From Xestospongia bergquistia (lineage: Eukaryota; Porifera; Demospongiae; Haplosclerida; Petrosiidae): a stretch of 64,000 nt of DNA. This document shows positions 678 to 47,600 of this stretch, piece by piece (within the stretch, counting starts at the first letter, position 1; each line of letters begins with the position of its first letter). The DNA lies in the NCBI GenBank assembly GCA_963965975.1, contig OZ014421.1, positions 3,771,001 to 3,835,000 of the forward strand. The letters are read 5' to 3'. A program made the position numbers and the translations under genes. The notes beneath the pieces are model-generated. The model was not told the DNA's origin, made no database searches, and was given only the letters and a program-made list of their open reading frames with translations.

Positions 678-1154
678 GTTTGATGAAATTATTTGCGTAT
701 AAATATCGCGCTCAATTACGACGACGTTGATTGCAATTCTTAATAAACCTTTTCTCTGTGATATATTGACTTTAGTAAGAAGTATATTTAGTACTATGTT
801 GCAAGTCTGAGTAATATTCAAGTAAATATGCTGGTTAATAAAGTATGTTGCATTCCATTTAGCCAAGTCATTTGGCAGTCTTCCCTGCAGTATTTCTGAG
901 CGAATGATGTTCCTCGGTACATGGTAAAGTAATGTATTACATCGTGATAGACTCAAGTAACATGATTTGTTGTCCTTCTAGGTATACGGATATCAGTGTA
1001 ATGTTACATTCATATTGTATAACTTAACAATATTACCTTATTTTAAACATACACACACACATACATGCAGATGAAGGAAATAACAATTGGTAAGTATATT
1101 AACAATAAAAATGTATAAACATTAACTGGTATTTTGACATAAACTAATACTACA
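678..1154. other. no supported gene; short AC run and one exon-like island
   Basis: A minus-strand ORF of 99 codons (657-956) has no recognisable domain and overlaps the tandem duplication, so I treat it as chance. A short AC-rich run lies at 1,051-1,063. Just after it, TGCAG at about 1,064-1,068, 19 nt of sequence and GTAAGT form a small acceptor/exon/donor-like arrangement upstream of the cassette array. Confidence 0.4.
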
Positions 1155-1199
1155 AATATAATACTACCAAATGTAATACTGCCAAATGTAATACTGCAA
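1155..1199 (+). repeat. left inverted repeat bounding the exon-like cassette array
   Basis: This 45-bp stretch is a run of 15-bp repeats (TAATACTACCAAATG, TAATACTGCCAAATG and a shorter form). Its reverse complement is present at 5,252-5,297 with only a few mismatches. The pair encloses the whole cassette array and could be terminal or subterminal repeats of a composite element. Confidence 0.75.
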
Positions 1200-1554
1200 A
1201 TGTAATATTGTCATTAACATATTTTAACATCATTGTAAAATATATTATTCCTTCTCGTTTCTCTTTTATTACCCTAGATTCGCTGTACATCAGGACTAGG
1301 CTCAAGACATCCTCTGTCTCAAAAGAGTCTAGGGAGTAAGTTAAGACCATACAGTACTAGACTACTAGTGTACATTGATTCATAATACTTCAGGCTCAAG
1401 ACTCAAGACATTCCTATACTTCGAAGAGTCTGAAGAGTAAGTTAACTGAATACAATACTAGTGTACATTAATTCATAATTAATTATTTCTGTTAATTTGT
1501 TTTTTATTACAATAGCTTCACTGGACATCAGGATCAAGGATCAAGACATTTCTA

Positions 1555-2044
1555 TAGCCTCGTACCCAGGCTTTTGCGATAGGAAAGAAAGCCTGGTAAC
1601 TACTATTAGCGCATGCATTTAATTTCCACAGATTCCTTTGAAAGTAGTATACTCTAGGAATCCTCCGCCAACTATTGATGTCAAAATTCCTTTAATCACA
1701 ATGTGAGACTATTTGTAGTACTGATAGAAAGTATTCTTCTGCTCTACTCTATGCTAATGATGGAAAAGATGTTTTCGTGTGGTTTTCTATTCTAACAACA
1801 CTGAACATGTTTGTCGCTCTTTTTGCTTTCATTAAGTATCTACAGAACCAACAAACTCAACTAGCCATGCCTAAACTCAGTAGTGAATGAAACGTCATCA
1901 ATAGAAATCCAGCCATTTACTTGTCATTTAATTCTAAATCTTGCCATTATGATGTCAGTATATTGCGTAAATTACAATAAACGGATGCACAAGCAGTAGT
2001 TACCAGGCTTTCTTTTCTATTGCGAAAACCTGGGTACAAGGCTA
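1555..2044. mobile_element. non-autonomous TIR element, copy 1 (490 bp)
   Basis: Long terminal inverted repeats of about 50 bp begin TAGCCTCGTACCCAGG and include AAAGAAAGCCTGGTAACTAC; the other end is the reverse complement with few differences. Flanks GACATTTCTA (1,545-1,554) and GACATTTCTC (2,045-2,054) look like a 9-10-bp target duplication of cassette sequence. Long TIRs and 9-10-bp duplications resemble Mutator-like MITEs, but no transposase is present, so the superfamily is inferred. About 65 bp present in the second copy is missing here. Confidence 0.75.
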
Positions 2045-3570
2045 GACATTTCTCCATCTCAAGGACTCTTGGGAGTAAGTCAGTGCTAGTATAAATTTAT
2101 TCATGATGCATTATTAATCTTTTTTATTACAATAGATTCGCTGGTTGTCAGAGGTCAAGGATGAAGACATTCCTCTATCTCGATAAGTTTGTCAAGTAAG
2201 TTAACAGAATACAATACTAGGTTACATTGATTCATGAAACACGATTACTCTTAACTTCTTTTATTACTATAGCTTGACTTGATGTCAGTCTCAAGGCTCA
2301 AGACATTCCTATATCTCAAAGAGTCTGAAGAGTAAGTTAACTGAATACAATCATAGTGTACATTAAGTCATAAGTCTTAATTCATAATACATTAATTCAT
2401 AATACTCTTAATCTCTTTTTCATTACTATAGCTTTGTTCGACATCAGGCTCAAGGCTCAAGAAATTCATCTGAAGAGTCTAGGGAGTAAGGCTCAAGGCA
2501 TTCATGTATCTCGATAGGGAGTAAGATCATACAGTACTAGGATAAAGTAATTCATAATGCATCATTACCTTTAATATCTCTTTTATTGCTATGGCTTCGC
2601 TGGATATTGGAATCAAGAATCAAGACATTCTGCTATCTTAAAGACACTGGGGAGTAAGTTCACAGAATACAGTAGTAGTGTACATTAAGTCATAATACAT
2701 CATTACTCTTACTTTCTCTTTTATTACTGCATATTACTCTTAATTTTTCTTTTATTACTGTAGCTTTACTGGACTTCAGGATCAAGGCTTGAGACATTCT
2801 TCTATCACAAAGAGTCTCACTCTGTGGAGTAAGTTAACAGCATACAGTACTAGTGTACATTAATTCATAATACCCATTACTCATAATACATATTATTATT
2901 ACTATAGCTTCGCTGGATATCAGTATCAAGAATCAAGACATTCTGCTATCTCGAAGACACTGGGGAGTAAGTTCACAGAATACAGTAGTAGTGTACATTA
3001 AGTCATAATACATCATTACTCTTACTTTATCTTTTATTACTGCATATTACTCTTAATTTCTCTTATATTACTGTAGCTTCACTGGACTTCAGGGTCAAGG
3101 CTCAAGACATTCCTCTATCACAAAGAGTCTGTGGAGTAAGTTAACAGCATACAGTACTAGTGTACATTAATTCATAATACCCATTACTCATAATACACAT
3201 TACTCTCAATTTCTATTTTATTACTATAGCTTCACTGGATATTGCGATCAAGAATCAAGACATTCTGCTATCTCAAGACACTGGGGAGTAAGTTAACAGA
3301 ATCAAGACATTCTGCTATCTCAAGACGCTGGGGAGTAAGTTAACAGAATACAGTACTGGTATAAATTAATTGATAATGCATCTTATCACTGTAGCTTCAT
3401 TTGATGTCTGGCTCAAGTCTCAAAACATTCCTATACTTCGAAGACTCTGAAGAGTAAGTTAACTAAATACGATACTACTGTACATTAATTCATAATATAT
3501 CATAGTCTTAATTTGTGTTTTATTACAATAGCTTTGCTGGATGTCAGGATCAAGGATCAAGATATTTCTC

Positions 3571-4129
3571 TAGCCTCATACCCAGGCTTTCACGATAGAA
3601 AAGAAAGCCTGGTAACTACTGTTTGTGCATGCATTTAATTTCCACAGATTTCTTTGAAACTAGTATACTCTATGAATCCTCCATCAACTATGACGTCAAA
3701 ATTCCTTTACCCGTAATATGAGACTATTTGTATCACTGATATAAAGTTTTCTTCTACTCTACTGTATGATCTAAAGCTGCTAGCAATGCCAAATCTATTT
3801 CTTAAAAGGAGCAACTCTTTGTCATTGAAGCTATATATGATGGAAAAGATATTTTCGTGTGGTTTTGTATTCCAACAGCACTGAACAAATTTGTCGTTCT
3901 TTTTGCTTTCATTAAATCTCTGCAGAACCGACAAACTCAGCTAGACATGCCCAAACTCAGTAGTGAATGAAACGTCATCAATATAAACCTGACCCATTTA
4001 CTTGTCATTTAATTTAAAATGTTGTCATTATGATATGAACATATAACATAATTTACAATAATTAAGCGCATACACAAGCAGTAGTTACCAAGCTTTCTTT
4101 TCTATCGCGAAAGCTTGGGTACGAGGCTA
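3571..4129. mobile_element. non-autonomous TIR element, copy 2 (559 bp)
   Basis: Same element as at 1,555-2,044, with the same TIRs and the same position in the cassette. Flanks GATATTTCTC (3,561-3,570) and GACAATTCTC (4,130-4,139) are diverged copies of the target duplication. It has about 65 bp more in the middle than copy 1. A 75-codon minus-strand ORF (3,707-3,934) is not conserved as an open frame in copy 1 and shows no known domain. Confidence 0.75.
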
Positions 4130-5251
4130 GACAATTCTCCATCTCAAAGACTTTTGGCAGTAAGTCAACAGCATTCAGTAGTCAGTACTAGTATGAAGTA
4201 ATTCATTGCTCTTAATTTCTCTTGTGTAACTGTAGCTTCGCTTGAAGTCAAGATCAAGGCTCAAGACATTCCTCTATCTGAAGATTCTGGGAAGTAAGTT
4301 AGCAGCATATAGTACTGGTGTACATTACTTAAAAAAGACATCATTACTCTTGATTTTCCTTTTATTACCATAGTTTCACTGGACATCATGATGAAGACTC
4401 AAGACATTCCTCTACCACAAAGAGTCTGTGGAGTAAGTTAACAGCACACAGTACTGGTGTGCATTAATTAATAAGTCTTAATTCATAATACATTAATTCA
4501 TAATACTCCTAATCTCTTTTTCATTACTATAGCTTTGCTCGACATCAAGCTCAAGGCTCAAGAAATTCATCTGAAGAGTCTAGGGAGTAAGGCTCAAGGC
4601 ATTTATGTATCTCGAAGAGTCTATGGAGTAAGGTACTAGTATAAAGTAATTCATAATGCATCATAACCTTAAATATATCTCTTTTATTGCTATAGCTTCA
4701 CTGGATATTGGGATCAAGAATCAAAGACATTCTGCTATCTGTCAAAGACACTGGGGAGTAAGTTCACAGAATGCAGTAGTAGTGTACATCATTACTCTTA
4801 CTTTCTCTTTTATTACTGCATATTACTCTTAATTTCTCTTTTATTACTGTAGCTTCACTGGACTTCAGGATCAAGGTCAAGACATTCCTCTATCACAAAG
4901 AGTCTGTGGAGTAAGTTAACAGCTTACAGTACTAGTGTACATAATTCATAATACTCATTACTCATAATACACATTACTCTCAATTTCTGTTTTATTACTA
5001 TAGCTTCGCTGGATATCGGGATCAAGAGTCAAGATTTTCCACGATCTCAAAGACGCTGGGCAGTACGTTAACAGAATACAGTACTAGAGTACATTAATTC
5101 ATAATGCATCTATTAATGTAGCTTCGCTGGACTTGTGGATCAAAGCTCAAGACATCTGGATCAAGACTCAAGACAGACATTCCTCTATCTCAAAGAGACT
5201 GGGCAGTAAGTTAACAACATACAGTAAATTTTGACAAGTAATCTAATCAGT

Positions 5252-5297
5252 GGTAGTATTACATTTGGCAGTGTTACATTTGGTAGTATTACATATT
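5252..5297 (-). repeat. right inverted repeat bounding the cassette array
   Basis: Reverse complement of 1,155-1,199: GTAGTATTACATTTGGCAG followed by two further 15-bp repeats. It begins about 45 bp after the last cassette donor at 5,206. Confidence 0.75.
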
Positions 5298-5641
5298 TAT
5301 GATAAAATGGTGTGTCTGTATCTATACTACTCTATATATTGTACCCAATTATACAATTTGTAGTAGTCAGTAAAGGTAAGTATCGAGAATACAACTATAA
5401 AGGTGAGTATATCTTCCAGAGAGAAAGCCGAGGAAGCCACAAGAGATTAGTTAGTCTGCTTTTGTGAGGGAAATGAGATTATGTAGAGCATTAATTGGTG
5501 TGGCTATCGTGGCTTGATAATTGGGTGTGGTGCTTGCAGCTATGCATTAATTTCCTAGACTACCTGGAGCATTAATTAAAATATGAGGTGTGGTCAAAAT
5601 AAACCACATCCAAAATATTTAATGGGTGTGGCTATCGAAGT
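5298..5641. other. no gene; GTAAGT/GTGAGT sites and part of a dispersed duplication
   Basis: Two donor-like sites, AAAGGTAAGT (about 5,373) and AAAGGTGAGT (about 5,400), follow the array on the same strand. The rest is AT-rich with GGGTGTGG boxes. Nothing coding is supported. Confidence 0.4.
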
Positions 5642-5672
5642 TTGATGAGTGGGTGTGATGCTTGCAGCCATG
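5498..5672 (+). repeat. 48-bp direct repeat, two copies 127 bp apart
   Basis: 5,498-5,545 and 5,625-5,672 both begin GGTGTGGCTATCG and contain GGGTGTG followed by TGCTTGCAGC. They differ at a handful of bases. Confidence 0.75.
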
Positions 5673-5977
5673 TACAGGTTTGTGAATATTGTTTACTGAT
5701 TGTACGTTTCATGCAGGTTTCGCCTAATCCACGTTCGCCTACATTATTTTTAATACAGTTTGGTTATGTTGACCATCTTAGATGTAACTACTCTGATCAC
5801 GTTCCACAGGAACCAGTCGAAGATTGGTATATATCAGACGAGTTCACTCCAAATCCAGATCCTCCTGCAGTTCAAATTGATATACCACCACTTGCACAAA
5901 TTCGTCCTGTTGCTGTTTGCCATTCTACTTATGTACCTCGACCTGTTGATTGTTTTGCACCCCTGCATCAAGCTTGA
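5642..5977 (+). CDS. possible 3'-terminal coding exon of an unrecognised gene
   Basis: The frame 5,642-5,977 is open to a TGA after FAPLHQA. Its most coding-like part follows an acceptor-like CATCTTAG at 5,774-5,781: CNYSDHVPQEPVEDWYIS, then a proline-rich stretch with NPDPPAVQIDIPPL and VPRPVDCF. I recognise no domain. The first 45 codons overlap the 48-bp repeat and probably are not coding. The end of this exon and the following 3' sequence are duplicated at 10,361-10,955, where the frame has lost internal codons and reaches a stop early. The intact exon may belong to a gene whose other exons are not visible, or be a relic. Confidence 0.3.
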   Translation: MMSGCDACSHVQVCEYCLLIVRFMQVSPNPRSPTLFLIQFGYVDHLRCNYSDHVPQEPVEDWYISDEFTPNPDPPAVQIDIPPLAQIRPVAVCHSTYVPRPVDCFAPLHQA

Positions 5978-11287: not shown

Positions 11288-11472
11288 ACCTAAACCATGA
11301 ACCCTAAATACTAACATTATAACATAAACCCAAACCTGAAACGAGAATTTCTAAATCACTAAACCTAACTTCTAAACCCTAAACTTGAAAACCTAAACCC
11401 TAAACCTTAAATCCTAAAACCAAAATGGTAAACACTAAATTTTAAAATCTAAACTCTAAACCCAAAACCTAC
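11288..11472 (+). repeat. degenerate CCTAAA/CCCTAAA repeat tract
   Basis: About 185 bp in which variants of CTAAACC or CCCTAAA recur (for example CCTAAACCCTAAACCTTAAA near 11,391), with every few units mutated. The phase resembles the TTTAGGG telomere type rather than metazoan TTAGGG, but it is too degenerate to be an active telomere. Confidence 0.6.
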
Positions 11473-16879: not shown

Positions 16880-19730
16880 GCCTTTATTGCAAATAGTTTG
16901 CAGTGGTAAGTATAAACCCATTATTGTAAGTAGTTCGCATTGTTAAGTTTACCAAAATACTGTAAACCCTAACAATCCTTTAAATTAAAGAGTTTCAAGA
17001 TTTAATGGAAATGAACTTAATAAACTGTCAATTGCAGTTTATTGAGTTATACTCTCTGAGTCCTTTAACCTAGGCAGTTTAATTAAAAAATGTTCACTGC
17101 TGTTCATTTAGTTAGTTTCTTTAAGTCCTTTAGTCTAAGCACTTTGCATTTTATTGAGTTAACTTTATAAAGTAAATTGCTAGGACTAAAGGACTTAAAG
17201 GGACTAAATAAATAAACTGCCATTAACAATATATTTAGTTTCTTCGCATTAATGCTCTAATGTCTTTAATTTAAAGACTTTAGAAGGTTTAGACTATTGA
17301 GTTTAGTTTATAAAATAAACTGCTGAGACTAAGGGACTTAAAGGGACTAAGTAAATAAACTGCCATTAACAGCTTATTAACTTTGTTTGCATTAACAGTC
17401 TAAGTCTTTAATTTAAAGACTTCAGAAGGCTTAGACTGTTGAGTAAATTTCAAATAGTAAACTGCTCAGACTAAAGGACTTAAAGGGACTAACTAAGTAA
17501 ACTGCCATTAACAGTTTATTAAGTTTGTTTGCAATAACAATTTTAAATCTTTAAATTAAAGACTTTAGAAGGTTTAGACTGTTGAGTAAATTTTAAAAAG
17601 TAAACTGCTCAGACTGAAGGACTTAAAGGGACTAACTAAGTAAACTGCCATTAACAGTTTGTCGAGTTTGTTTGCATTAATGCTCTAAAGTCTTTAATTT
17701 AAAGACTTTAGAAGGTTTACACTATTGAGTGAACTTTCTAAAGTAATCTGTTCAGACTAAAGGAGTTAAGGAACCAACCAAATAAGCTGCAATTAATTGT
17801 TTACTAAGTTGGTGTGTATTAAAACATTCAAGTCTTTAATTTAAAGACTTTAAGAGGGTTTGGCTATTGATTTCAGTTTATTAAGTAAACTGCAAAGACT
17901 AAAGGACTTAAACCGACTAACTAAATAAACTGCCATTAACAGTTTATTAAGTTTGTTTGCATTAATGCTCTAAAGTCTTTAATTTAAAGACTTTAGAAGG
18001 TTTAGATTATTGAGTGAATTTTAAAAAGTAAACTGCTCAGACTGAAGGACTTAAAGGGACTAACTAAGTAAACTGCCATTAACAGTTTGTCGAGTTTGTT
18101 TGCATTAATGCTCTAAAGTCTTTAATTTAAAGACTGTAGAAGGTTTAGACTATTGAGTGAACTTTCTAAAGTAATCTGTTCAGACTAAAGGAGTTAAAGG
18201 GACCAACCAAATAAGCTGCAATTAATTGTTTACTAAGTTGGTGTGTATTAAAACATTCAAGTCTTTAATTTAAAGACTTTAAGAGGGTTAGGCTATTGAT
18301 TTCAGTTTATTAAGTAAACTGCAAAGACTAAAGGACTTAAACCGACTAACTAAATAAACTGCCATTAACAGTTTATTAAGTTTGTTTGCATTAATGCTCT
18401 AAAGTCTTTAATTTAAAGACTTTAGAAGGTTTAGATTATTGAGTGAATTTTAAAAAGTAAACTGCTCAGACTGAAGGACTTAAAGGGACTAACTAAGTAA
18501 ACTGCCATTAACAGTTTGTCGAGTTTGTTTGCATTAATGCTCTAAAGTCTTTAATTTAAAGACTGTAGAAGGTTTAGACTATTGAGTGAACTTTCTAAAG
18601 TAATCTGTTCAGACTAAAGGAGTTAAAGGGACCAACCAAATAAGCTGCAATTAATTGTTTACTAAGTTGGTGTGTATTAAAACATTCAAGTCTTTAATTT
18701 AAAGACTTTAAGAGGGTTAGGCTATTGATTTCAGTTTATTAAGTAAACTGCAAAGACTAAAGGACTTAAACCGACTAACTAAATAAACTGCCATTAACAG
18801 TTTATTAAGTTTGTTTGCATTAATGCTCTAAAGTCTTTAATTTAAAGACTTTAGAAGGTTTAGATTATTGAGTGAATTTTATAAAGTAAACTGCTCAAAA
18901 TAAAAGACTTAAAGGGACTAACTAAATAAACTGGAATTAACATTTTATCAAGTTTGTTTCCAATAACGCTCTAATGTCTTTAATTTAAAGACTTTAGAAG
19001 TTTAGACTATTGACTTAAGGTTATAAAATAAACTGCTGAGACTAAAGGCCTTAAAACGACTAACTAAATAAACTACCATTAACAGTTTATTAAGTTTGTT
19101 TGCATTAACGCTTTAAAGTCTTTAATTTAAAGAGTTTAGAAGGTTTAGACTATTGGGTGTACTTTAAAAAGGAAACTGCTCAGACTAAAGGACTTAAATG
19201 GACTAACTAAATAAACATCAATTAACAGTTTATTAAGTTGGTTTGTATTAAAGCACTAAAGTCTTTAATTTAAAAACTTTAGAAGGTTTAGACTATTGAG
19301 TGAACTTTCTAAAGTAATCTGTTCAGACTAAAGGACTTAAAGGGACCAACTAAATAAGCTGCATTTAACAGTTTACTAAGTTGGTGTGTAACAGTTTATT
19401 AAGTTTGTTTGCATTAACGCACTTTATAAGGTTTCGACTATTGAGTTAAGTTTATAAAATAAACTGCATAGACTAAGGGACTTAAAGGGACTAAGTAAAG
19501 AAACTGCCATTAAAAGCTTATCAACTTTGTTTCATTAACCTTCTAAAGATTTTAATTCAATGACTTTAGAAGGTTGAGACTGTAGAGTTAACTGTATAAA
19601 GTAAACTGCTCAGACTAAAGGATTTAAAGGGACTAACTAAATAAACTGCCATTAACAGTTTATTAAGTTTCTTTCCATTAACGCTCTAAAGTCTTTAATT
19701 TAAAGACTTTAGAAGGTTTAGACTACTTTA
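16880..19730 (-). repeat. 143-bp satellite, inverted-orientation segment (about 20 monomers)
   Basis: Monomers contain TCTTTAATTTAAAGACTTTA, GGTTTAGACTATTGAGT and AAACTGCTCAGACTAAAGGA, the reverse complement of the main array. They are more diverged from each other than those of the main array, most of all at the left edge. I call this strand minus relative to the main array. Confidence 0.9.
17655..18880 (-). repeat. 429-bp higher-order repeat (three monomers), nearly three copies
   Basis: ACAGTTTGTCGAGTTTG recurs at about 17,655, 18,083 and 18,512, and AAAACATTCAAGTC at about 17,820, 18,249 and 18,678. Both are spaced by 429 bp, which is 3 x 143. Copies are almost identical. Confidence 0.85.
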
Positions 19731-19904
19731 AAAAGTACACCCAATAGTCTCTTTATATATTTAGTCCATTTAAGTCTTTTAGACTGAGCAATTTACTTTA
19801 TAAACTTCAATCAACAGTCTAAACCTTCTAAAGTCTTTAAATTAAAGACTTCAGAGCGTTAACACAAACAAACTTACTAAACTGTTATTAGCAGTTTATT
19901 TATA
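19731..19904 (+). repeat. 143-bp satellite, first monomer after the orientation switch
   Basis: Reads GTCCATTTAAGTC, TTTAGACTGAGCA, AGTCTAAACCTTCTAAAG in the orientation of the main array. It ends at the inserted TIR element. Confidence 0.85.
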
Positions 19905-20692: not shown

Positions 20693-23600
20693 TATACATA
20701 GTACCATTAAATCATTTAGACTGAGCAGTTTACTTTATAAACTTCTCTCAATAGTCTAAACTTCCAAAGTCTTTAACTTAAAGACTTGGGAGTGTTAATG
20801 CAAACTAACTTACTAAACTGTTAATAGCTGTTTATTTATTTAGTGCCATAAAGTCCTTTAGACTGAGCAGTTTACTTTATAAACTTCTCTCAATAGCCTA
20901 AACCTTCTAAAGTCTTTAACATAAAGACTTTGGAGCGTTAATGCAAACTAACTTACTAAACTGTTAGTAGCTGCTTATTTAGTTAGTGCCGTAAAGACCT
21001 TTAGACTGAGTACTTTACTTTATAAATTTCTCTCAATATTCTAAACCTTCTAAAGTCTTTAACTTAAAGACTTTAGAGAGTTAATGCAAACTAACTTACT
21101 AAACTGTTAATAGCTGTTTATTTATTTAGTGCCATAAAGTCCTTTACGCTGAGCAGTTTACTTTATAAACTTCTCTCAATAGTCTAAACCTTCTAAAGTC
21201 TTTAACTTAAAGACTTTAGAACGTTAATGTAAACAAACTTACTAAACTGTTAATAGCTGTTTATTTATTTAGTGCCATAAAGTCCTTTACACTGAGCAAT
21301 TTACTTTATAAACTTCTCTCAATAGTCTAAACCTTCTAAAGTCTTTAACTTAAAGTCTTTAGAGCGTTAATGCAAACTAACTCACTAAACTGTTAATAGC
21401 TGTTTATTTAGTTAGTGCCATAAAGTCCTTTAGACTGAGCAGTTTACATTATAAACTTCTCTCAAAAGTCTAAACCTTCTAAAGTCTTTAACTTAAAGAC
21501 TTTAGAGTATTAATGCAAACTAACTTGCTAAACTGTTAATAGCTGTTTATTTAGTTAGTGCCATAAAGTCCTTTAGCCTAAGCAGTTTACTTTATAAACT
21601 TCTCTCCATAGTCTAAACCTAATAAAGTCTTTAACTTAATGACTTTGGAGCGTTAATGCTATCTAACTTACTAAACTGTTAATAGCTGTTTATTTAGTTA
21701 GTGCCATAAAGTCCTTTAGCCTGAGCAGTTTACTTTATAAACTTCTCTCAATAGTCTAAACCTTCTAAAGTCTTTAACTTAAAGACTTTGGAGCGTTAAT
21801 GCAAACTATCTTACTAAACTTTTAATAGCTGTTTATATACTTAGTGCCATAAAGTCCTTTAGACTGCGTAGTTTACCTTATAAACTTCTCTCAATAGTCT
21901 AACCCTTCTAAAGTCTTTAACTTAAAGACATTGAAGTGTTAATGCAAACTAACTAACTAAACTGTTAATAGCTGTTTATTTAGTTAGTGCCAAAAAGTCC
22001 TTTAGACTGAGCAGTATACTTTATAAACGTCTCTCAATAGTCTAAACCTTCTAAAGTCTTTAAGTTAAAGACTTTGGAGCGTTAATGCAAACTAACTTAC
22101 TAAACTGTTAATAGCTGCTTATTTAGTTACTGCCATAAAGTCCTTTAGACTTAGCAGTTTACTTTATAAACTTCTCTCAATAGTCTAAACCTTCTAAAGT
22201 CTTTAACTTAAGGACTTTGGAGCGTTAACGCAAACTAACTTACTAAACTGTTAATAGCTCTTTATTTATTTAGTGCCATAAAGTCCTTTAGACTGAGTAG
22301 TTTACTTTATAAACTTCTCTCAATGGTGTCAACCTTCTGAAGTCTTTAACTTAAAGACTTTGGAGCGTTAACGTAAGCTGACTTACTAAACTCTTAATAG
22401 CTCTTTATTTAGTTAGTGCCATAAAGTCCTTTAGACTGAGCAGTTTACTTTATAAACTTCTCTCAATAGTCTAAACCTTCTAAAGTCTTTAACTTAAATA
22501 CTTTAGAGCGTTAATGCAAACTAACTTACAAAGCTGTTAATAGCTTTTTATTTAGTTAGTGCCATAAAGTCCTTTACACTAAGCAGTTAACTTTATAAAC
22601 TTCTCTCAATAGTCTAAACCATCTAAAGTCTTTACCTTAAAGACTTTAGAGCGTTAATGCAAACTATCTTACTTAACTGTTAATAGCTGTTTATTTAGTT
22701 AGTGCCATAAAGTCCTTTAGACTGAGCAGTTTACTTTATAAACTTCTCTCAATAGTCTAAACCTACTAAAGTCTTCAAATTAAAGACTTTACAGCATTCA
22801 TGCAAACTAACTTACTAAACTGTTAAGAGCTGTTTACTTAGTTAGTGCCATCAAGTCCTTTAGACTGAGCAGTTTACTGTATAAACTTCTCTCAATTGTC
22901 TAAACCTTTTAAAGTCTTTAACTTAAAGACTTTAGAGCGTTAATGCAAACTAACTTACTAAACTGTTTATAGCTGTTTATTTAGTTAGTGCCATAAAGTC
23001 CTTTAGACTGAGCAGTTTACTTTATAAACGTCTCTCAATAGTCTAAACCTTCTAAAGTCTTTAACTTAAAGACTTTAAAGCGTTAATGCAAACTGACTTA
23101 CTAAACTGTTAATAGCTGTCTATTTGGTTAGTGCCATAAAGTCCTTTAGACTTAGTAGTTTACTTTAAAAACTTCTCTCAATAGTCTAAACCTTCTAAAG
23201 TCTTTAATTTAAAGACTTTAGAACGTTAATGCAAACTAACTTATTAAACTGTTAATAGCTGTTTATTTAGTTAGTTGCATAAAGTCCTTTAGACTGAGCA
23301 GTTTACTTTATAAACTTCTCTCAATAGCCTAAACCTTCTAAAGTCTTTAATTTAAAGACTTTAGAACGTTAATGCAAAGTCACTTATTAAACTGTTAATA
23401 GCTGTTTATTTAGTTAGTGCCATAAAGTCCTTTAGACTGAGCAGTTTACTTTATAAATTTCTCTCAATAGTCTAAACATTCTAAAGTCTTTACCTTAAAG
23501 ACTTTATAGCGTTAATGCAAACTAACTTACTAAACTGTTAATAGCTGTTTATTTAGTTAGTGCCATAAAGTCCTTTAGACAGAACAGTTTACTTTCTAAA

Positions 23601-24149
23601 CTTCTCTCAATAGTCTAAACCTACAAAAGTCTTCAAATTAAAGACTTTACAGCGATAATGCAAACTAACTTACTAAACTGATAAATGCTGTTTATTTAGT
23701 TAGTGCCATAAAGTCCTTTACACTGAGCAGTTTACTTTATAAACTTCTCTCAATAGTCTAAACCTTCTAAAGTCTTTAACTTAAAGACTTTAGAGCGTTA
23801 ATGCAAACTAACTTACTAAACTGTTTATAGTTGTTTATTTAGTTAGTGCCATAAAGTCCTTTAGACTGAGCAGTTTACTTTATAAACTTCTCTCAATAGT
23901 CTAAACCTTCTAAAGTCTTTAACGTAAAGACTTTAGAGCGTTAAGGCTAACTAACTCACTAAACTGTTAACAGCTGTTTATTTAGTTAGTGCCATAAAGT
24001 CCTTTAGACTTAGTAGTTTACTTTATAAACTTCTCTCAATAGTCTAAACCTTCTAAAGTCTTTAACTTAAAGACTTTGGCGTGTTAATGTAAACTAACTT
24101 ATTAAACTGTTAATAACTGTTTATTTAGTTAGTGCCATAAAGTCCTTTA

Positions 24150-26720
24150 GACTGAGTAGTTTATTTTATAAAATTCTCTCAATAGTCTAAACCATTTAAA
24201 GTCTTTAACTTAAAGACTTTAGAGCGTTAATGCAAACTAACTTACTAAACTGTTAATAGCTGTTTATTTAGTTAGTGCCATGAAGTCCTTTAGACTGAGC
24301 AGTTTACTTTATAAACATCTCTCAATAGTCTAAACCTTGTGAAGTCTTTAACTTAAAGACTTTGGAGCGTTAATGCAAACAAACTTACAAAACTGTTAAT
24401 AGCTGTTTGTTTAGTTAGTGCCATAAAGTCCTTTAGACTTAGTAGTTTACTTTATAAACTTCTCTCAATAGTCTAAACCTTCTAAAGTCCTTAACTTAAT
24501 GACTTTGGAGTGTTAGTGCAAACTAACTTACTAAACTGTTAATAGCTGTTTATTTAGTTAGTCCCATAAAGTCCTTTAGACTGAGCAGTTTAATTTATAA
24601 ACTTCTCTCAATAGTGTAAACCTTCTAAAGTCTTTAACTTAAAGACTTTAGAGCGTTAATGCAAACTAATTTACTATACTCTTAATAGCTTTTTATTTCG
24701 TTAGTGCTATTAAGTCCTTTAGACTGAGCAGTTTACTTTATAAACTTCTCTCAATAGTCTAAACCTTCTAAAGTCTTTATCTTAAAGACTTTGGAGCGTT
24801 AATGCAAACTAACTTACTAAACTGTTAATAGGTGTTTATTTAGTTAGTGCCATAAAATCCTTTAGACTGAGCAGTTTACTTTATAAACTTCTCTCAATAG
24901 TCTAAACCTTCTAAAGTCTTTATCTTAAAGACTTTAGAGCGTTAATGAAACTAACTTACTAAACTGTTAATAGCTGTTTGTTTAGTTAGTGCCATAAAGT
25001 CCTTTAGTCTGAGCAGTGTACATTATAAACTTCTCTCAATAGTCTAAACCTTCTAAAGTCTTTAACTTAAAGACTTTGGTGCGATAATGTAAAATAACTT
25101 ATTAAACTGTCAATAGCTGTTTATTTAGTTAGTGCCATAAAGTCCTTTAGACTGAGTAGTTTACTTTATAACCTTCTCTAAATAGTCTAAACCTTCTAAA
25201 GTCTTTAACTTAAAGACTTTAGAGCGTTAATGCAAACGAACTTACTAAACTCTTAATAGCTGTTTATTTAGTTAGTGCCATAAAGTCCTTTAGACTGAAC
25301 AGTTAACTTTATAAACTTCTCTCAATAGTCTAAACCTTCTAAAGTCTTTAACTTAAAGACTTTGGAGCGTTAATGTAAACTAACTTATTAAACTGTTAAT
25401 AGCTGTTTATTTAGTTAGTGCCATAAAGTCCTTTAGACTGAGTAGTTTATTTTATAAACTTCTCTCAATAGTCTAAACCATTTAAAGTCTTTAACTTAAA
25501 GACTTTAGAGCGTTAATGCAAACTAACTTACTAAACTGTTAATAGCTGTTTATTTAGTTAGTGCCATAAAGTCCTTTAGACTGAGCAGTTTACTTTATAA
25601 ACATCTCTCAATAGTCTAAACCTTGTGAAGTCTTTAACTTAAAGACTTTGGAGCGTTAATGCAAACAAACTTACAAAACTGTTAATAGCTGTTTGTTTAG
25701 TTAGTGCCATAAAGTCCTTTAGACTTAGTAGTTTACTTTATAAACTTCTCTCAATAGTCTAAACCTTCTAAAGTCCTTAACTTAATGACTTTGGAGTGTT
25801 AGTGCAAACTAACTTACTAAACTGTTAATAGCTGTTTATTTAGTTAGTCCCATAAAGTCCTTTAGACTGAGCAGTTTAATTTATAAACTTCTCTCAATAG
25901 TGGAAACCTTCTAAAGTCTTTAACTTAAAGACTTTAGAGCGTTAATGCAAACTAATTTACTATACTCTTAATAGCTTTTTATTTCGTTAGTGCCATTAAG
26001 TCCTTTAGACTGAGCAGTTTACTTTATAAACTTCTCTCAATAGTCTAAACCTTCTAAAGTCTTTATCTTAAAGACTTTGGAGCGTTAATGCAAACTAACT
26101 TACTAAACTGTTAATAGGTGTTTATTTAGTTAGTGCCATAAAATCCTTTAGACTGAGCAGTTTACTCTATAAACTTCTCTCAATAGTCTAAACCTTCTAA
26201 AGTCTTTAACTTAAAGACTTTAGAGCGTTAATGAAACTAACTTACTAAACTGTTAATAGCTGTTTGTTTAGTTAGTGCCATAAAGTCCTTTAGTCTGAGC
26301 AGTGTACATTATAAACTTCTCTCAATAGTCTAAACCTTCTAAAGTCTTTAACTTAAAGACTTTGGTGCGATAATGTAAAATAACTTATTAAACTGTTAAT
26401 AGCTGTTTATTTAGTTAGTGCCATAAAGTCCTTTAGACTGAGTAGTTTACTTTATAACCTTCTCTCAATAGTCTAAACCTTCTAAAGTCTTTAACTTAAA
26501 GACTTTGGAGCGTTAATGCAAACGAACTTACTAAACTCTTAATAGCTGTTTATTTAGTTAGTGCCATAAAGTCCTTTAGACTGAACAGTTTACTTTATAA
26601 ACTTCTCTCAATAGTCTAAACCTTCTAAAGTCTTTAACTTAAAGACTTTGGAGCATTAATGCAAACTAACTTACTAAACTGTTTATAGCTGTTTATTTAG
26701 TTAGTGCCATAAAGTCCTTT
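24150..26720 (+). repeat. 1,287-bp higher-order repeat (nine monomers), two copies
   Basis: Variant words such as AACCATTTAAAGTC (about 24,190 and 25,477), ACCTTGTGAAGTC and TACTATACTCTTAATAGC recur in the same order 1,287 bp apart, which is 9 x 143. Confidence 0.8.
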
Positions 26721-29700
26721 AGACTGAGCAGTTTATTTTATAAACTTCTCTCAATAGTCTAAACCTTCTAAAGTCTTTAACTTAAAGACTTTAGAGCGTT
26801 AATGCAAACTAACTTACTAAACTATTAATAGCTGTTTATTTAGTTAGTGCCATAAAGTCCTTTAGACTGAGTAGTTTATTTTATAAACTTCTCTCAATAG
26901 TCTAAACCATTTAAAGTCTTTAACTTAAAGACTTCAGAGCGCTAATGCAAACAAACTTACTAAACTGTTAATAGCTGTTTATTTAGTTAGTGCCATAAAG
27001 TCCTTTAGACTGAGCAGTTTACTTTATAAACTTCTCTCAATAATCTAAACCTTCTAAAGTCTTTAACTTAAAGACTTTGGAGCGTTAATGCAAACTAACT
27101 TACTAAACTGTTAATAGCTGTTTATTTAGTTAGTGCCATAAAGTCCTTTAGACTGAACAGTTTACTTTATAAACATCTCTCAATAGTCTAAACCTTCTAA
27201 AGTCTTTAACTTAAAGACTTTGGAGCGTTAATGCAAACTAACTTACTAAACTGTTAATAGCTGTTTATTTAGTTAGTGCCATAAAGTCCTTTAGACTGAG
27301 TAGTTTACTTTATAAACTTCTCTCAATAGTCTAAACCTTCTAAAGTCTTTAACTTAATGACTTTGGAGCGTTAATGCAAACTAACTTACTAAACTGTTAA
27401 TAGCTGTTTATTTAGTTAGTGCCATAAAGTCCTTTAGACTGAGCAGTTTTCTTTATAAACTTCTCTCAATAGTCTAAGCCTTCTAAAGTCTTTAACTTAA
27501 AGACTTTGGAGCGTTAATGCAAACTAACTTACTAAACTTTTAATAGCTGTTTATTTAGTTAGTGCCATAAAGTCCTTTAGTCTGAGCAGTTTACATTATA
27601 AACTTCTCTGAATAGTCTAAACCTTCTAAAGTCTATGTCTTAAAGACTTTGGAGCGTTAATGCAAACTAACTTACTAAACTGTTAATAGCTGTTTATTTA
27701 GTTAGTGCCATAAAGTCCTTTAGACTGAGCAGTTTACTTTATAAACTTCTCTCAATAGTCTAAACCTTCTAAAGTCTTTAACTTAAAGACTTTGGAGCGT
27801 TAATGCAAACTAACTTACTAAACTTTTAATAGATGTTTATTTAGTAAGTGCCATAAAGTCCTTTAGTCTGAGCAGTTTACATTATAAACTTCTCTCAATA
27901 GTCTAAACCTTCTAATGTCTTTAACTTAAAGACTTTGGAGCGTTAACGTAAACTAACTTATTAAACTGTTAATAGCTGTTTATTTAGTTAGTGCCATAAA
28001 GTCCTTTAGACTGAGCAGGTTACTTTATAAACTTCTCTCAATAGTCTAAACCTTCTAAAGTCTTTAACTTAAAGACTTTAGAAAGTTAATGCAAACAGAC
28101 ATACCAAACTGTTAATAGGTGTTCATTTATTTAGTGCCTAAAGTCCTTTAGACTGAGCAGTTTACTTTATAAACTTCTCTCAATAGTCTAAACCTTCTAA
28201 AGTCTTTAACTTAAAGACTGTGGAGCTTTAATGCAAACTAACATACTAAACTGTTAATAGCTCTTTATTTAGTTAGTGCCATAAAGTCCTTTAGACTGAG
28301 CAGTTTACTTTATAAACTTCTCTCAATAGTGTAAACCTTATAAAGTCTTCATCTTAAAGAATTTAGAGCGTTAATGCAAACTAACTTACTAAACTGTTAA
28401 TAGCTGTTTATTTAGTTAGTGCCATAAAGTCCTGTAGACTGACCACTTAACATTATAAACTTCCCTCAATAGTCTAAACCTTCTAAAGTCTTTAAATTAA
28501 AGACTTTAAAGCGTTAACGCAAACTAACTTATTAAACTGTTAATAGCTGTTTATTTAGTTAGTGCCATAAAGTCCTTTAGACTGAGTAGTTTACTTTATA
28601 AACTTCTCTCAATAGTCTAAAGGTTCTAAAGTCTTTAACTTAAAGACTTTGGAGCGTGAATGTAAAGTAACTTATTAAACTGTTAATAGCTGTTTATTTA
28701 CTTAGTGCCATAAAGTCCTTTAGACTGAGTAGTTTACTTTATAAACTTCTCTCAATAGTCTAAACCATTTAAAGTCTTTAACCTAAAGACTTTAGAGCGT
28801 TCCTGCTAACTGTCTTAATAGTTCTTTATTTCGTTTGTGCTATAAAGTCCGTTAGACTGAGCAGCTTACTTTATAAAATTGTCTCGAAAGTCTGAACCTT
28901 CTAAAGTCTTTAACTTTAAGACTTTAGAGCGTTAATGCAAAATAACATGCTAAACTGTTGATAACTGTTTATTTAGTTAGTGCCATAATGTCCTTTTGTC
29001 TGAGCAGTTTACATTATAAAATTCTCTCAATAGTCTAAACCTTCAAAAGTCCTTAACTTAAAGACTTTGTAGCGTTAATGTATACTAACTTATTAAACTG
29101 TTAATAGCTGTTTATTTAGTTAGTGCCATAAAGTCCTTTAGACTGAGCAGTTTACTTTATAAACTTCTCTCAATAGTCTAGGCCTTCTAAAGTCTTTAAC
29201 TTAAAGACTTTAGAAAGTTAATGCAAACTAACTTACTAAACTGTTAATAGCTGTTTATTTAGTTAGTGCCATAAAGTCCTTTAGACTGAGCAGTTTACTT
29301 CATAAACTTCTCTCAATAGTCTAAACCTTCCAAAGTCTTTAACTTAAAGACTTTAGAGCGTTAATGCAAATTAACTTACTAAAGAGTTAATAGCTGTTTA
29401 TTTAGTTAGTGCCATAAAGTCCTTTAGACTGAGTAGTTTACTTCATAAACATCTCTCAATAGTCTAAACCATTTACAGTCTTTAACTTAAAGACTTTAGA
29501 GCCTTAATGCAAACTAACTTACTAAACTTTTAATAGCTGTTTATTTAGTTAGTGCCATAAAGTCCTTTAGACTGAGCAGTTTACTTTATAAACTTCTCTC
29601 AATAGTCTAAACCTTCTAAAGTCTTTAACTTAAAGACTTTGGAGCGTTCATGCAAACTAACTTACTAATCTGTTAATAGCTGTTTATTTAGTTAGTGCCA

Positions 29701-30539
29701 TAAAAACCTTTAGACTGAGTAGTTTACTTTATAAACATCTCTCAATAGTCTAAACCTTCTAAAGTCTTTAACTTAAAGACTTTAGAGCGTTAATGCAAAC
29801 TAACTTACTAAACTGTTATTTAGTTAGTGCCATGAAGTCCTTTAGACTGAACAGTTTACTTTATAAACTTCTCTCAATAGTCTAAACCTTCTAAAGTCTT
29901 TAACTTAAAGACTTTGGAGCGTTAATGCAAACTAACTTACTAAACTGTTAATAGCTGTTCATTTAGTTAGTGCCATAAAGTCCTTTAGACTGAGTAGTTT
30001 ACTTTATAAACTTCTCTCAATAGTCTAAACCTTCTAAAGTCTTTAACTTAATGACTTTGGAGCGTTAATGCAAACTAACTTACTAAACTGTTAATAGCTG
30101 TTTATTTAGTTAGTGCCATAAAGTCCTTTAGACTGAGCAGTTTACTTTATAAACTTCTCTCAATAGTCTAAACCTTCTAAAGTCTTTAACTTAAAGACTT
30201 TAGAGCGTTAATGCAAACTAACTTACTTAACTCTTAGTAGCTTTTTATGTAGTTAGTGCCATAAAGTCCTTTAGACTAAGCAGTTTACTTTATAAACTTC
30301 TCTCAATAGTCAAAACTTGTAAAGTCTTTATCTTAAAGACTTTGGAGCGTTAATGCAAACTAACTTACTAAACTGTTAATAGCTGTATATTTATTTAGTG
30401 CCATAAAGTCCTTTACACTGAGCAGTTTACTTCATAAACTTCTCTCAATAGTCTAAACCTTCTAAAGTCTTTAACTTAAAGACTTTGGAGCGTTAATGCA
30501 AACTAACTTACTAAACTGTTAATAGCTGTTTATTTAGTT

Positions 30540-33115
30540 AGTGCCATAAAGTCCTTTAGACTGAACAGTTTACTTTATAAACATCTCTCAATAGTCTAAA
30601 CCTTCTAAAGTCTTTAACTTAAAGACTTTGGTGCGTTAATGCAAACTAACTTACTAAACTGTTAGTAGCTGTTTATTTAGTTAGCGCCATAAAGTCCTTT
30701 AGACTGAGTAGTTTACTTTAGAAACTTCTCTCAATAGTCTAAATCTTCTAAAGGCTTTAACTTAATGAGTTTGGAGCGTTAATGCAAACTAACTTACTAA
30801 ACTGTTAATAGCTGTTTATTTAGTTAGTGCCATAAAGTCCTTTAGACTGAGCAGTTTACTTTATAAACTTCTCTCAATAGTCTAAACCTTCTAAAGTCTT
30901 TAACTTAAAGACTTTAGCGCGTTAATGCAAACTAACTTACTATACTCTTAATAGCTTTTTATTTAGTTAGTGCCATTAAGTCCTTTAGACTGAGCAGTTT
31001 ACTTCATAAACTTCTCTCAATAGTCTAAACCTTCTAAAGTCTATATCTTAAAGACTTTGGAGCGTTAATGCAAACGAACATAGGAAAGTTTTAATAGGTG
31101 TTTATTTAGTTAGTGCCATAAAGTTCTTTAGACTGAGCAGTTTACTTTATAAACTTCTCTCAATAGTCTAAACCTTCTAAAGTCGTTAACTTAAAGACTT
31201 TGGAGCGTTAATGCAAACTAACTTACTAAACTGTTTATAGCTGTTTATTTAGTTAGTGCCATAAAGTCCTATATTCTGAGCAGTTTACATTATAAACTTC
31301 TCTCAATAGTCTAAACCTTCTAAAGTCTTTAACTTAAAGACTTTGGAGCGTTAATGTAAACTACCTTATTAAACTGTTGATAGCTGTTTATTTAGTTAGT
31401 GCCATAAAGTCCTTTAGACTGAACAGTTTACTTTATAAACATCTCTCAATAGTCTAAACGTTCTAAAGTCTTTAACTTAAAGACTTTGGAGCGTTAATGC
31501 AAACTAACTTACTAAACTGTTAATAGCTGTTTATTTAGTTAGCGCCATAAAGTCCTTTAGACTGAGTAGTTTACTTTAGAAACTTCTCTCAATAGTCTAA
31601 ACCTTCTAAAGGCTTTAACTTAATGAGTTTGGAGCGTTAATGCAAACTAACTTACTAAACTGTTAATAGCTGTTTATTTAATTAGTGCCATAAAGTCCTT
31701 TAGACTGAGCAGTTTACTTTATAAAATTCTCTCAATAGTCTAAACCTTCTAAAGTCTTTAACTTAAAGACTTTAGAGCGTTAATGCAAACTAACTTACTA
31801 TACTCTTAATAGCTTTTTATTTAGTTAGTGCCATTAAGTCATTTAGACTGAGCAGTTTACTTCATAAACTTCTCTCAATAGTCTAAACCTTCTAAAGTCT
31901 ATATCTTAAAGACTTTGGAGCGTTAATGCAAACGAACATAGGAAAGTTTTAATAGGTGTTTATTTAGTTAGTGCCATAAAGTTCTTTAGACTGAGCAGTT
32001 TACTTTATAAACTTCTCTCAATAGTCTAAACCTTCTAAAGTCGTTAACTTAAAGACTTTGGAGCGTTAATGCAAACTAACTTACTAAACTGTTTATAGCT
32101 GTTTATTTAGTTAGTGCCATAAAGTCCTATATTCTGAGCAGTTTACATTATGAACTTCTCTCAATAGTCTAAACCTTCTAAAGTCTTTAACTTAAAGACT
32201 TTGGAGCGTTAATGTAAACTACCTTATTAAACTGTTGATAGCTGTTTATTTAGTTAGTGCCATAAAGTCCTTTAGACTGAACAGTTTACTTTATAAACAT
32301 CTCTCAATAGTCTAAACCTTCTAAAGTCTTTAACTTAAAGACTTTGGAGCGTTAATGCAAACTAACTTACTAAACTGTTAATAGCTGTTTATTTAGTTAG
32401 CGCCATAAAGTCCTTTAGACTGAGTAGTTTACTTTAGAAACTTCTCTCAATAGTCTAAACCTTCTAAAGGCTTTAACTTAATGAGTTTGGAGCGTTAATG
32501 CAAACTAACTTACTAAACTGTTAATAGCTGTTTATTTAATTAGTGCCATAAAGTCCTTTAGACTGAGCAGTTTACTTTATAAAATTCTCTCAATAGTCTA
32601 AACCTTCTAAAGTCTTTAACTTAAAGACTTTAGAGCGTTAATGCAAACTAACTTACTATACTCTTAATAGCTTTTTATTTAGTTAGTGCCATTAAGTCCT
32701 TTAGACTGAGCAATTTACTTTATAATCTTCTCTCAATAGTCTAAACCTTCTAAAGTCTAAATCTTAAAGACTTTGGAGCGTTAATGCAAACTAACGTAGG
32801 AAACTTTCAATAGGTGTTTATTTAGTTAGTGCCATAAAGTTCTTTAGACTGAGCACTTTACTTTATAAACTTCTCTCAATAGTCTAAACCTTCTAAAGTC
32901 TTTAACTTAAAGACTTTGGAGCGTTAATGCAAACTAACTTACTAAACTGTTAATAGCTGTTTATTTAGTTAGTGCCATAAAGTCCTTTATTCTGAGCAGT
33001 TTACATTATAAACTTCTCTCAATAGTCTAAACCTTCTAAAGTCTTTAACTTAAAGACTTTGGAGCGTTAATGTAAACTACCTTATTAAACTGTTGATAGC
33101 TGTTTGTTTAGTTAG
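30540..33115 (+). repeat. 858-bp higher-order repeat (six monomers), three copies
   Basis: GCGCCATAAAG followed by TTTAGAAACTTC and AAAGGCTTTAACTTAATGAG occurs at about 30,684, 31,542 and 32,400. The marker CATAGGAAAGTTTTAATAGG (GTAGG in the third copy) follows each time. The spacing is 858 bp, which is 6 x 143. Confidence 0.85.
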
Positions 33116-36100
33116 TGCCATAAAGTCCTTTAGACTGAGCAGTTTACTCTATAAACTTCTCTCAATAGTCTAAACCTTCTAAAGTCTTTAACTTAAAGAC
33201 TTTAGAGCGTTAATGCAAACTAACTTACTAAACTGTTAATAGCTGTTTATTTAGTTAGTGCCATAAAGTCCTTTAGACTGAGCAGTTTACCCTCATAAAC
33301 TTCTCTCAATAGTCTAAACCTTCCAAAGTCTTTAACTTAAAGACTTTAGAACGTTAATGCAAACTAACTTACTGAAGAGTTAATAGCTGTTTATTATGTT
33401 AGTGCCATAAAGTCCTTTAGACTGAGTAGTTTACTTTATAAACATCTCTCAATAGTCTAAACCATTTACATTCTTTAACTTAAAGACTTTAGAGCCCTAA
33501 TGCAAACTAACTTACTAAACTGTTAATAGCTGTTTATTTAGTTAGTGCCATAAAGTCCTTTAGACTGAGCAGTTTACTTTATAAACTTCTCTCAATAGTC
33601 TAAACCTTCTAAAGTCCTTAACTTAAAGACTTTGGAGCGTTAATGCAAACTAACTTACTAATCGGTTAATAGCTGTCTATTTAGTTAGTGCCATAAAGTC
33701 CTTTAGACTGAGTAGTTTACTTTATAAACTTCTCTCAATAGTCTAAACCTTCTAAAGTCTTTAACTTAAAGACCTTGGAGCGTTAATGCAAACTAACTTA
33801 CTAATCTGTTAATAGCTGTTTATTTAGTTAGTGCCATAAAGTCCTTTAGACTGAGTAGTTTACTTTATAAACTTCTCTCAATAGTCTAAACCTTCTAAAG
33901 TCTTTAACTTAAAGACTTTAGAGCGTTAATGCAAACTAACTTACTAAACTGTTAATAGCTGTTATTTAGTTAGTGCCATGAAGTCCTTTAGACTGAACAG
34001 TTTACTTTATAAACTTCTCTCAATAGTCTAAACCTTCTAAAGTCTTTAACTTAAAGACTTTGGAGCGTTAATGCAAACTAACTTACTAAACTGTTAATAG
34101 CGGTTCATTTAGTTAGTGCCATAAAGTCCTTTAGACTGAGTAGTTTACTTTATAAACTTCTCTCAATAGTCTAAACCTTCTAAAGTCTTTATCTTAAAAC
34201 CTTTGGAGAGTTAATGCAAACTAACTTACTAAACTGTTAATAGCTGTATATTTAGTTAGTGCCATAAAGTCCTTTAGACTGAGCAGTTTACTTTATAAAC
34301 TTCTCTCAATAGTCTAAACCTTCTAAAGTCTTTAACTTAAAGACTTTGGAGCGTTAATGCAAACTAACTTACTAAACGGTTAATAGGTGTTATTTAGTTA
34401 GTGCCATAAAGTCCTTTAGACTGAACAGTTTACTTTATAAACATCTCTCAATAGTCTAAACCTTCTAAAGTCTTTAACTTAAAGACTTTGGAGCGTTAAT
34501 GCAAACTAACTTACTAAACTGTTAATAGCTATTTATTTAGTTAGCGCCATAAAGTCCTTTAGACTGAGTAGTTTACTTTAGAAACTTCTCTCAATAGTCT
34601 AAACCTTCTAAAGGCTTTAACTTAATGAGTTTGGAGCGTTAATGCAAACTAACTTACTAAACTGTTAATAGCTGTTTATTTAGTTAGTGCCATAAAGTCC
34701 TTTAGACTGAGCAGTTTACATTATAAACTTCTCTCAATGGTGTAAACCTTCTAAAGTCTTTAAGTTAAAGACTTTGGAGCGTTAATGCAAACTAACTTAC
34801 TAACCTGTTAATAGCTGTTTATTTAGTTAGTGCCATAAAGTCCTTTAGACTGAGTAGTTTACTTTATAAACTTCTCTCAATAGTCTAAACATTCTAAAGT
34901 CTTTAACTTAAAGACTTTGGAGGGTTAATGCAAAATAACTTACTAAACTGTTAATAGCTGTTTATTTAGTTAGTGCCATAAAGTCCTTTAGACTGAGCAG
35001 TTTACTTTATAAACTTCTCTCAATAGTCTAAACCTTCTAAAGTCTTTAACTTAAAGACTTTAGAGCGTTAATGCAAACTAACTTACTAAACTGTTAATAG
35101 CTGTTTATTTAGTTAGTGCCATAAAGTCCTTTATTCTGAGCAGTTTACATTATAAACTTCTCTCAATAGTCTAAACCTTCTAAAGTCTTTAACTTAAAGA
35201 CTTTGGAGCGTTAATGTAAACTACCTTATTAAACTGTTGATAGCTGTTTATTTAGTTAGTGCCATAAAGTCCTTTAGACTGAGAAGTTTACTTTATAAAC
35301 TTCTCTCTATAGTCTAAACCTTCTAAAGTCTTTAACTTAAAGACTTTAGAAAGTTAATGCAAACTGACACAGCAAACTGTTAATAGCTGTTTATTTAGTT
35401 AGTGCCATAAAGTCCTTTAGACTGAGCAGTTTACTTTATAAACTTCTCTCAATAGTCTAAACTTCTAAACTCTTTAACTGAAAGACTTTAGAGCGTTAAT
35501 GCAAACTAACCTACTAAACTGTTAATAGCTGTTTATTTATTTAGTGCCATAAAGTCCTTTAGACTGAGCAGTTTACTTTATAAAATTCTTTCAATAGTCT
35601 AAAACTTCTAAAGTCTTTACCTTAAAGACTTCAGAGCGTTACTGCGATCTAAGTTACTAAACTGCTAATAGCTGTTTATTTAGTTAGTGCCATAAAGTCC
35701 TTTAGACTGAGGAGTTTACTTTATAAACTTCTCTCAATAGTCTAAACCTTCTAAAGTCTTTAACTTAAAGACTTTAGAGCGTTAATGCAAACTAACTTAC
35801 TAAACTATTAATAGCTGTTTATTTAGTTACTGCCATAAAGTCCTTTAGACTGAGCAGTTTACTTTAGAAACTTCTCTCAATAGTCTACACCTTCTAAAGT
35901 CTTTAACTTAAAGACTTTAGGGCGTTAATGCAAAGTAACTTACTAAACTGTTAATAGCTGTTTATTTAGTTAGTGCCATAAAGTCCTTTAGACTGAGCAG
36001 TTTACTTTATATACTTCTCTCAATAGTCTAAACCTTCTAAAGTCTTTAACTTAAGACTTTAGAGCGTTAAGGCAAACTAACTTACTAAACTGTTAATAGC

Positions 36101-47400: not shown

Positions 47401-47600
47401 ATAATATCCCTTAGACTGAGCAGTTTACTATATAAACTTCTCTCAGTAGTCTAAACCTTCTAAAGTCTTTAACTTAAAGACCTTAGAAAGTTAATGCAAA
47501 CAGCCATACCAAACTGTTAATAGCTGTTTATTTAGTTAGTGCCATAAAGTCCTTTAGACGAGCAGCTTACTTTATAAACTTCTCTCAATAGTCTAAACCT
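38500..47600 (+). repeat. long variable-length higher-order blocks
   Basis: A block marked by CCATAATATCCCTTAGACTG and then AAAGACCTTAGAAAGTTAAT recurs at about 38,970, 41,972, 43,256, 45,113 and 47,400. The spacings are close to 21, 9, 13 and 16 monomers. A second marker, TATACCTTCTAAAGTC with TTTATCCTAAAG, recurs in the same order. Confidence 0.75.

Follow-up and report, generated by a model that had tools for sequence, protein, structure and literature searches.

A dispersed gene-like family with exon-like cassettes amplified between inverted repeats in the sponge Xestospongia bergquistia

We analysed a window of 64,000 nt from the genome of the sponge Xestospongia bergquistia (contig OZ014421.1, here C11:3771001-3835000; the source genome comprises 146 Mb in 21 contigs, labelled C1-C21, and L-numbers denote separate stretches that were read). 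Close to its left end, at 1251..5226 on the plus strand, lies an array of cassettes, each consisting of an acceptor-like tract, a core of mostly 58-60 nt, a GTAAGT donor and an intron-like spacer. By its plan, this array is one member of a dispersed gene-like family in which a few to probably hundreds of exon-like cassettes stand between matching inverted repeats. We estimate the probability that the family members are spliced, most likely noncoding, multi-exon transcription units with amplified exons at roughly one in two.

In the window, 26 full or partial units could be aligned over 1247-5226, several of them truncated. The motif GTA[AC]G occurs at 24 sites, 23 of which are cassette donors at 1336-5206 (22 GTAAG and one GTACG at 5063), while one lies inside an insertion (4119). 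Acceptor-donor pairs 50-66 nt apart number 14 on the plus strand (22 GTAAG) and three on the minus strand (4 GTAAG), and the same count in 200 dinucleotide shuffles gave a mean of 1.07 and a maximum of 5. The array of about 22 cassettes with acceptor tracts and GTAAGT donors, described in an initial annotation of the window, is thus real. Its claim that the signals are kept in nearly all copies also holds: the donor GT is present in 23/23 aligned units and the acceptor AG in 19/21 (the exceptions are GG near 2594 and one AA), the latter count being approximate because two aligned units (2007-2104 and 4092-4206) carry insert sequence where the acceptor is expected. Among 20 exons paired by script, six measure 59 nt, four 58 nt and the remaining ten 43-84 nt.

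Relatives of the array are spread over the genome. The core pattern gave 811 matches (482 on the plus and 329 on the minus strand) against 12 for the reversed control, and the 15-bp motif of the flanks gave 345 against none. We read arrays of 16 units on C12 (L029), 23 exons on C3 (L039) and 18 exons on C4 (L040), as well as 73 units in 10 kb on C10, where exact matches extend over about 44 kb (1889.4-1933.3 kb), or some 300 units by extrapolation. Exon length is nearly constant inside an array (60 nt in 21/23 exons of C3 and 17/18 of C4, 59 nt in 14/15 of C12) and differs among arrays, being 59 nt in C12, 60 nt in C3 and C4 and mostly 62 nt in C10 (37/50). A 540-bp block from upstream of the C3 array matched nine copies of the window type, described below, and some 31 further sites, the most divergent at 69-70 % identity (at least 41 matches; best 40 of 84 candidates scored). 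These diverged relatives lie outside the mid-chromosome blocks and include chromosome ends (L031 and L033-L037 are contig ends). On several contigs a satellite of about 326-343 bp adjoins the chromosome-end members.

The members have a common plan. Its 5′ part comprises a palindrome, several short segments with AG and GT at their borders, a 19-nt micro-exon and 15-bp direct repeats; the cassettes follow, then the 15-bp repeats in inverted orientation and a donor-bearing block, AAAG/GTGAGTATAT. The palindrome was read in C3 and C12, and the flanks were aligned across six loci. The ordered plan is common to C3 and C12 over about 5.5 kb and is found in part in C4, at the chromosome ends and in the window, where the copy can be aligned to other members from about 921 onward and the first 20 kb hold no match to the palindrome. 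One palindrome arm had at least 65 matches (75 candidates, of which the best 40 were scored), and some of these lie no more than 40 kb from a contig end, at about 14 such ends. In the window, the micro-exon-like piece lies at 1071..1089 (+) between CATGCAG and GTAAGTAT; in the six-locus alignment its length and its AG..GT borders are constant and its letters, including an ATG, vary. The left 15-bp repeats occupy 1145..1207 (+), where tandem-repeat and inverted-repeat analysis and arm pairing delimit an arm at 1151-1202. The right arm, at 5248..5299 (+), carries the repeats inverted and is 87 % complementary to the left one; both arms are additions to what the initial annotation had described. 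The downstream block AAAG/GTGAGTATAT...GAGAAAGC, with its donor G at 5403, lies at 5399..5453 (+) and is common to the other five aligned loci. A simple satellite, in the sense of a head-to-tail repeat without ordered unique flanks, was rejected, as the six aligned loci have the same ordered flanks. No match at the Rfam gathering score was found in the window, L009, L029, L031, L039, L041 or L042.

The copies most similar to the window form a group of their own. A 211-bp flank of the array matched C4, C5, C6, C7, C10, C11, C13 and C15 with 99-100 % identity (best 40 of 139 candidates), and the pattern search together with the L038 stretch (26 units) added C14 as a ninth contig. These window-type copies lie well inside the contig on all nine, on one strand per contig, with spacings that range between 65 kb (C6) and 220 kb (C13); one pair on C11 is closer (3320 and 3331 kb). 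Considered together with the satellite in the window, the copied block may represent a centromeric or pericentromeric higher-order repeat, and the window copy looks like an ageing, decaying passenger of a satellite block. The satellite block in the chromosome middle would have captured the array and carried it to nine chromosomes, after which decay set in.

Splice dinucleotides are fully retained in three of the dispersed arrays. In C3, C4 and C12 the aligned cassettes have the donor GT in 57/57 and the acceptor AG in 56/56 cases, whereas elsewhere in these consensus sequences GT is kept in 78-89 % and AG in 90-96 %. In C4 (0.8 %), the window (1.5 %) and C3 (4.5 %), GTAAG ranks with the best-conserved five-column stretches. 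Pairwise mismatch in the window is 0.0 at the donor GT and 0.017 over GTAAG, which 1.5 % of five-column stretches equal or beat, and 0.095 at the acceptor AG (17 % of comparable stretches are equal or better), so that in the comparison of borders with spacers proposed by the initial annotation the donor side is favourable and the acceptor side weakly so. In our judgement the strongest sign of splicing comes from the chromosome ends (L031, L035), where an insert divides the cassette core into two exons, A and B; the insert starts with GTAAGT and ends with a pyrimidine tract followed by CTACAG. Of the six aligned end copies, five contain two A-B pairs and L032 contains one. In the non-array flanks, the donor motif GTDAG is kept in 32/63 cases on the plus strand versus 6/22 on the minus strand and 4/15 in the reversed control. 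The claim that the cassettes are repeated exons and not a random satellite is partly supported, through the dispersed relatives with their common plan, invariant GT/AG in three arrays and intron-like split of the core; the window copy itself has a decaying look. The products of such exons may be combinatorial, noncoding or circular.

Several observations weigh against splicing. The expectation that cores would be better conserved than spacers was not borne out, with a mean pairwise mismatch in the window of 0.254 in exons and 0.252 in introns. GTAAG is not outstanding in C10 (28 %) or C12 (35 %), and C12 provides no test of splice constraint because the array is too uniform (73/136 adjacent column pairs are invariant). 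C3 and C4, whose upstream regions are 97 % identical, are recent paralogues and do not count as independent evidence. All 62/62 splice dinucleotides present in the six aligned end copies are kept (L037, the seventh, was left out), but just 129 of 2458 columns vary, too few for this to be significant. The acceptor-like YYNAG is kept in the flanks in 32/87 cases, hardly above the control (26/88) and the minus strand (22/81); GTDAG shows no excess on the plus over the minus strand in the upstream stretches of C3, C4 and C12; and the eight flank comparisons overlap one another. Finally, exon duplication copies splice sites for free.

The last point leads to the main rival, which we regard as a serious possibility: a non-autonomous, foldback-like or satellite-bearing element in which the capture of an exon and its intron was followed by their amplification into a minisatellite flanked by inverted repeats; the splice signals would be passive leftovers copied by unequal exchange, and no splicing would take place. 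Inverted repeats around a tandem core, the presence of the palindrome at many family loci and the places near mid-chromosome blocks and at about 14 contig ends would all fit such an element. So would the long C10 array, the largest one, in which GT is kept in 56/70 and lost in 14/70 cassettes read, AG is kept in 67/72 and the donor G is among the more variable columns. The window-type copies also appear free of constraint on GT, as in 17 aligned copies (of 20 candidates; L015, L028 and L038 had no exact boundary match and were left out) 4/48 donor-GT columns vary versus 6.2 expected without constraint. Against the element stand the GT and AG that are invariant in three dispersed arrays and the extra intron-like insert, with signals of its own, in the end copies. 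Moreover, homology runs past the arms both upstream and downstream (C3 versus C12 and L031), so the arms do not mark the termini of a simple transposon, although no systematic search was made for outer ends and target-site duplications. A terminal-inverted-repeat or foldback transposon bounded by these arms was rejected on this ground; a larger element that ends elsewhere is possible.

The arms sit in the predicted introns before the first and after the last cassette at all six loci. Own-arm duplexes reach -83 to -136 kcal/mol, compared with shuffles averaging -36 to -50 kcal/mol (100 shuffles), in 6/6 loci. The arrangement known from circular RNAs, with complementary inverted repeats in both flanking introns, is therefore present at 6/6 loci at the level of predicted introns. 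A history of compensatory change is less clear. The arms of C3 and L031 differ by seven mirrored changes, but these stand beside 55 one-sided or unpaired columns and can also be explained by gene conversion. Foreign arms often pair equally well or better, for instance L031 left with C12 right (-97.0 versus -95.7 kcal/mol for own arms) and C4 left with C12 right (-177.2 versus -136.1), and the attempt to demonstrate arm co-evolution from own-versus-foreign pairing failed.

If the members are spliced transcription units, each would consist of small upstream exons, the 19-nt micro-exon, a variable number of cassettes and the 3′ block with its GTGAGT donor. A cassette of about 138-141 bp would represent one exon of 59-62 nt and one intron of about 78-80 nt, born by tandem duplication of a single exon with its intron. 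Splicing of the precursor across the cassettes would yield an RNA of tandem repeats. The 15-bp-repeat tracts in the introns on either side of the array may pair with each other, so that the array could be looped out, skipped or back-spliced as a block. A more far-reaching version, which we consider unlikely, is a noncoding gene family with members at mid-chromosome satellite blocks and chromosome ends, in which one small exon has been amplified to anything between a few and hundreds of copies, with intronic inverted repeats on both sides, and one RNA stem decides between inclusion of the block, its skipping and a tandem-repeat circular RNA.

We think it quite improbable that the family encodes proteins, with tandem exons used singly (as in Dscam-like choice) or serially (as in micro-exon genes). 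The near-constant exon length inside the C3, C4 and C12 arrays would suit such a gene, and two frames have few stops or none in C3 (3 and 2 of 23 exons), C4 (2 and 1 of 18) and C12 (0 and 0 of 15). The joined C12 exons leave one frame open for 287 codons, a length that can arise by chance in a homogeneous repeat, and a neighbouring cassette family (see below) is open in one frame in 6/10 measurable copies, the script having skipped 12 other copies or fragments. However, the length class varies, and neither 59 nor 62 nt is a multiple of three; the 60-nt exons of C3 and C4 are, but they contain stops, and a micro-exon-gene-like repeat with multiple-of-three exons and an open frame was rejected accordingly. 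Every frame has a stop in at least one exon in C3, C4, C10 and the window, with many in the latter two. The window core was initially described as open in all three frames, yet stops occur in 4, 7 and 7 of its 20 exons (frames 0, 1 and 2). Pfam searches of the L041 and L042 frames and of three cassette peptides gave sub-cut-off matches only (DUF3624, E 0.01; Cro, E 0.0015). A noncoding product is favoured because of the stops in the frames of nearly all arrays, the possible chance nature of the C12 opening and the unconserved ATG of the micro-exon.

Satellite-repeat loci producing PIWI-interacting RNAs (piRNAs) are known in mosquitoes, and the tandem arrays and a 650-nt C3 region with the palindrome, which folds at -260 kcal/mol, might suggest a source of piRNAs or small interfering RNAs with an incidental exon look; we give this slightly less credence still, as it leaves the AG/GT spacing and the split cassette unexplained, the palindrome lies about 0.9 kb from the first cassette in C3 and Rfam gave no match.

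Mutually exclusive exon clusters of the Dscam type are coding and have a selector near each variable exon. From the excerpts available (PMC8042237, PMC6071210), they resemble the sponge family in that exons of similar size are arrayed and intronic sequences can pair with one another, whereas in the sponge, where the two introns around the array were examined, one arm precedes and one follows the entire array. The tandemly repeated 81-base exons of Schistosoma mansoni (Davis et al. 1988) are similar, to judge from the title, in being short exons repeated head to tail; the predicted sponge exons measure 59, 60 or 62 nt, and inverted arms flank their array. Schistosome micro-exon genes likewise consist mostly of very small exons and form several families; according to excerpts of PMC10526429 and PMC4015677 their exons are mostly multiples of three and coding, with introns ranging in length from 100 to nearly 5000 bp, in contrast to the near-identical sponge exons with introns of about 78-80 nt, for which coding is not supported. 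Circular RNAs formed across inverted repeats, such as Sry, offer a parallel in the repeats flanking the exons, which can favour circle formation (PMC4479058, in part); by analogy the sponge arms may do the same. The maize centromeric retrotransposon CRM1, with back-spliced RNA circles reported in the accessible part of PMC7010299, is comparable in that the sponge family, too, may give rise to spliced RNA within a repeat block of centromere-like character; we noticed no retrotransposon features in the sponge family, and no search was aimed at them. The open-access literature searched gave no matching system, but the result lists were short and we do not claim its absence from print.

If the family is spliced, it would show in nature how far exons can multiply when no coding constraint applies and copy number is the trait that evolves. 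It would also lend itself to testing whether intronic inverted repeats can control a whole exon block, the pairing arms making skipping or back-splicing of the array testable. In addition, it would provide a candidate spliced RNA from the repeat-rich middles and ends of chromosomes in a probably early-branching animal. If no splicing occurs, the family clearly cautions that fragments of exons, once amplified, can look like exon arrays when raw sequence is read.

Two inserts interrupt the window array. The first, at 1555..2044, breaks a cassette and resembles a miniature inverted-repeat transposable element with long inverted ends (1555-1621/1978-2044). The second, at 3561..4139, is related to it, also has long inverted ends (3561-3640/4060-4139) and probably came along when part of the array was duplicated. 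A GGTGTGG-rich repeat at 5557..5694 (+) was found by blastn downstream of the arrays in C12 and C3 as well.

A second, upstream cassette family with a 167-bp core is represented by a partial copy at 849..928 (+; nhmmer E 1e-18) and has its main array immediately to the left of the window (L009 20-8096, on C11). Together they comprise about 20 exon-like cassettes, with the acceptor TTTCTRCAG, a core of about 109 nt and a GC-AG-like donor (GCAAGT or GCAAAT) in 8/10 measurable copies. This family had no match in the C3, C12 and L031 stretches.

Much of the window consists of a 143-bp satellite. Tandem Repeats Finder and similarity matches place it on the minus strand at 17210..19737 (18 matches; repeat span 17151-19725) and, beyond a gap of about 1 kb, on the plus strand at 20699..64000, i.e. 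over the last ~43 kb to the window end (299 plus-strand matches at 16919-63999, including a plus-strand piece at 16919-17046). A relationship between satellite and cassettes was rejected, their longest common match being 9 nt. Degenerate, telomere-like CTAAACC-type repeats were found by the same program at 11359-11476, distant from any contig end.

The search for transfer RNA genes in the window found none, and among ten open reading frames of the window searched against Pfam the only match above the cut-off was DUF7869 (E 1.3e-9; 7092-7499, minus strand). It belongs to a separate minus-strand element with neighbouring open reading frames at 6907-9033, broken over several frames, which we guess is probably transposon-derived. 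Elsewhere in the assembly, C21 carries a COX1 gene that is readable with TGA as tryptophan and, on visual inspection, looks like that of a demosponge, and broken copies of mitochondrial COX1 lie on the chromosome contig C6 at 3154917-3155898 and 3199148-3200446.
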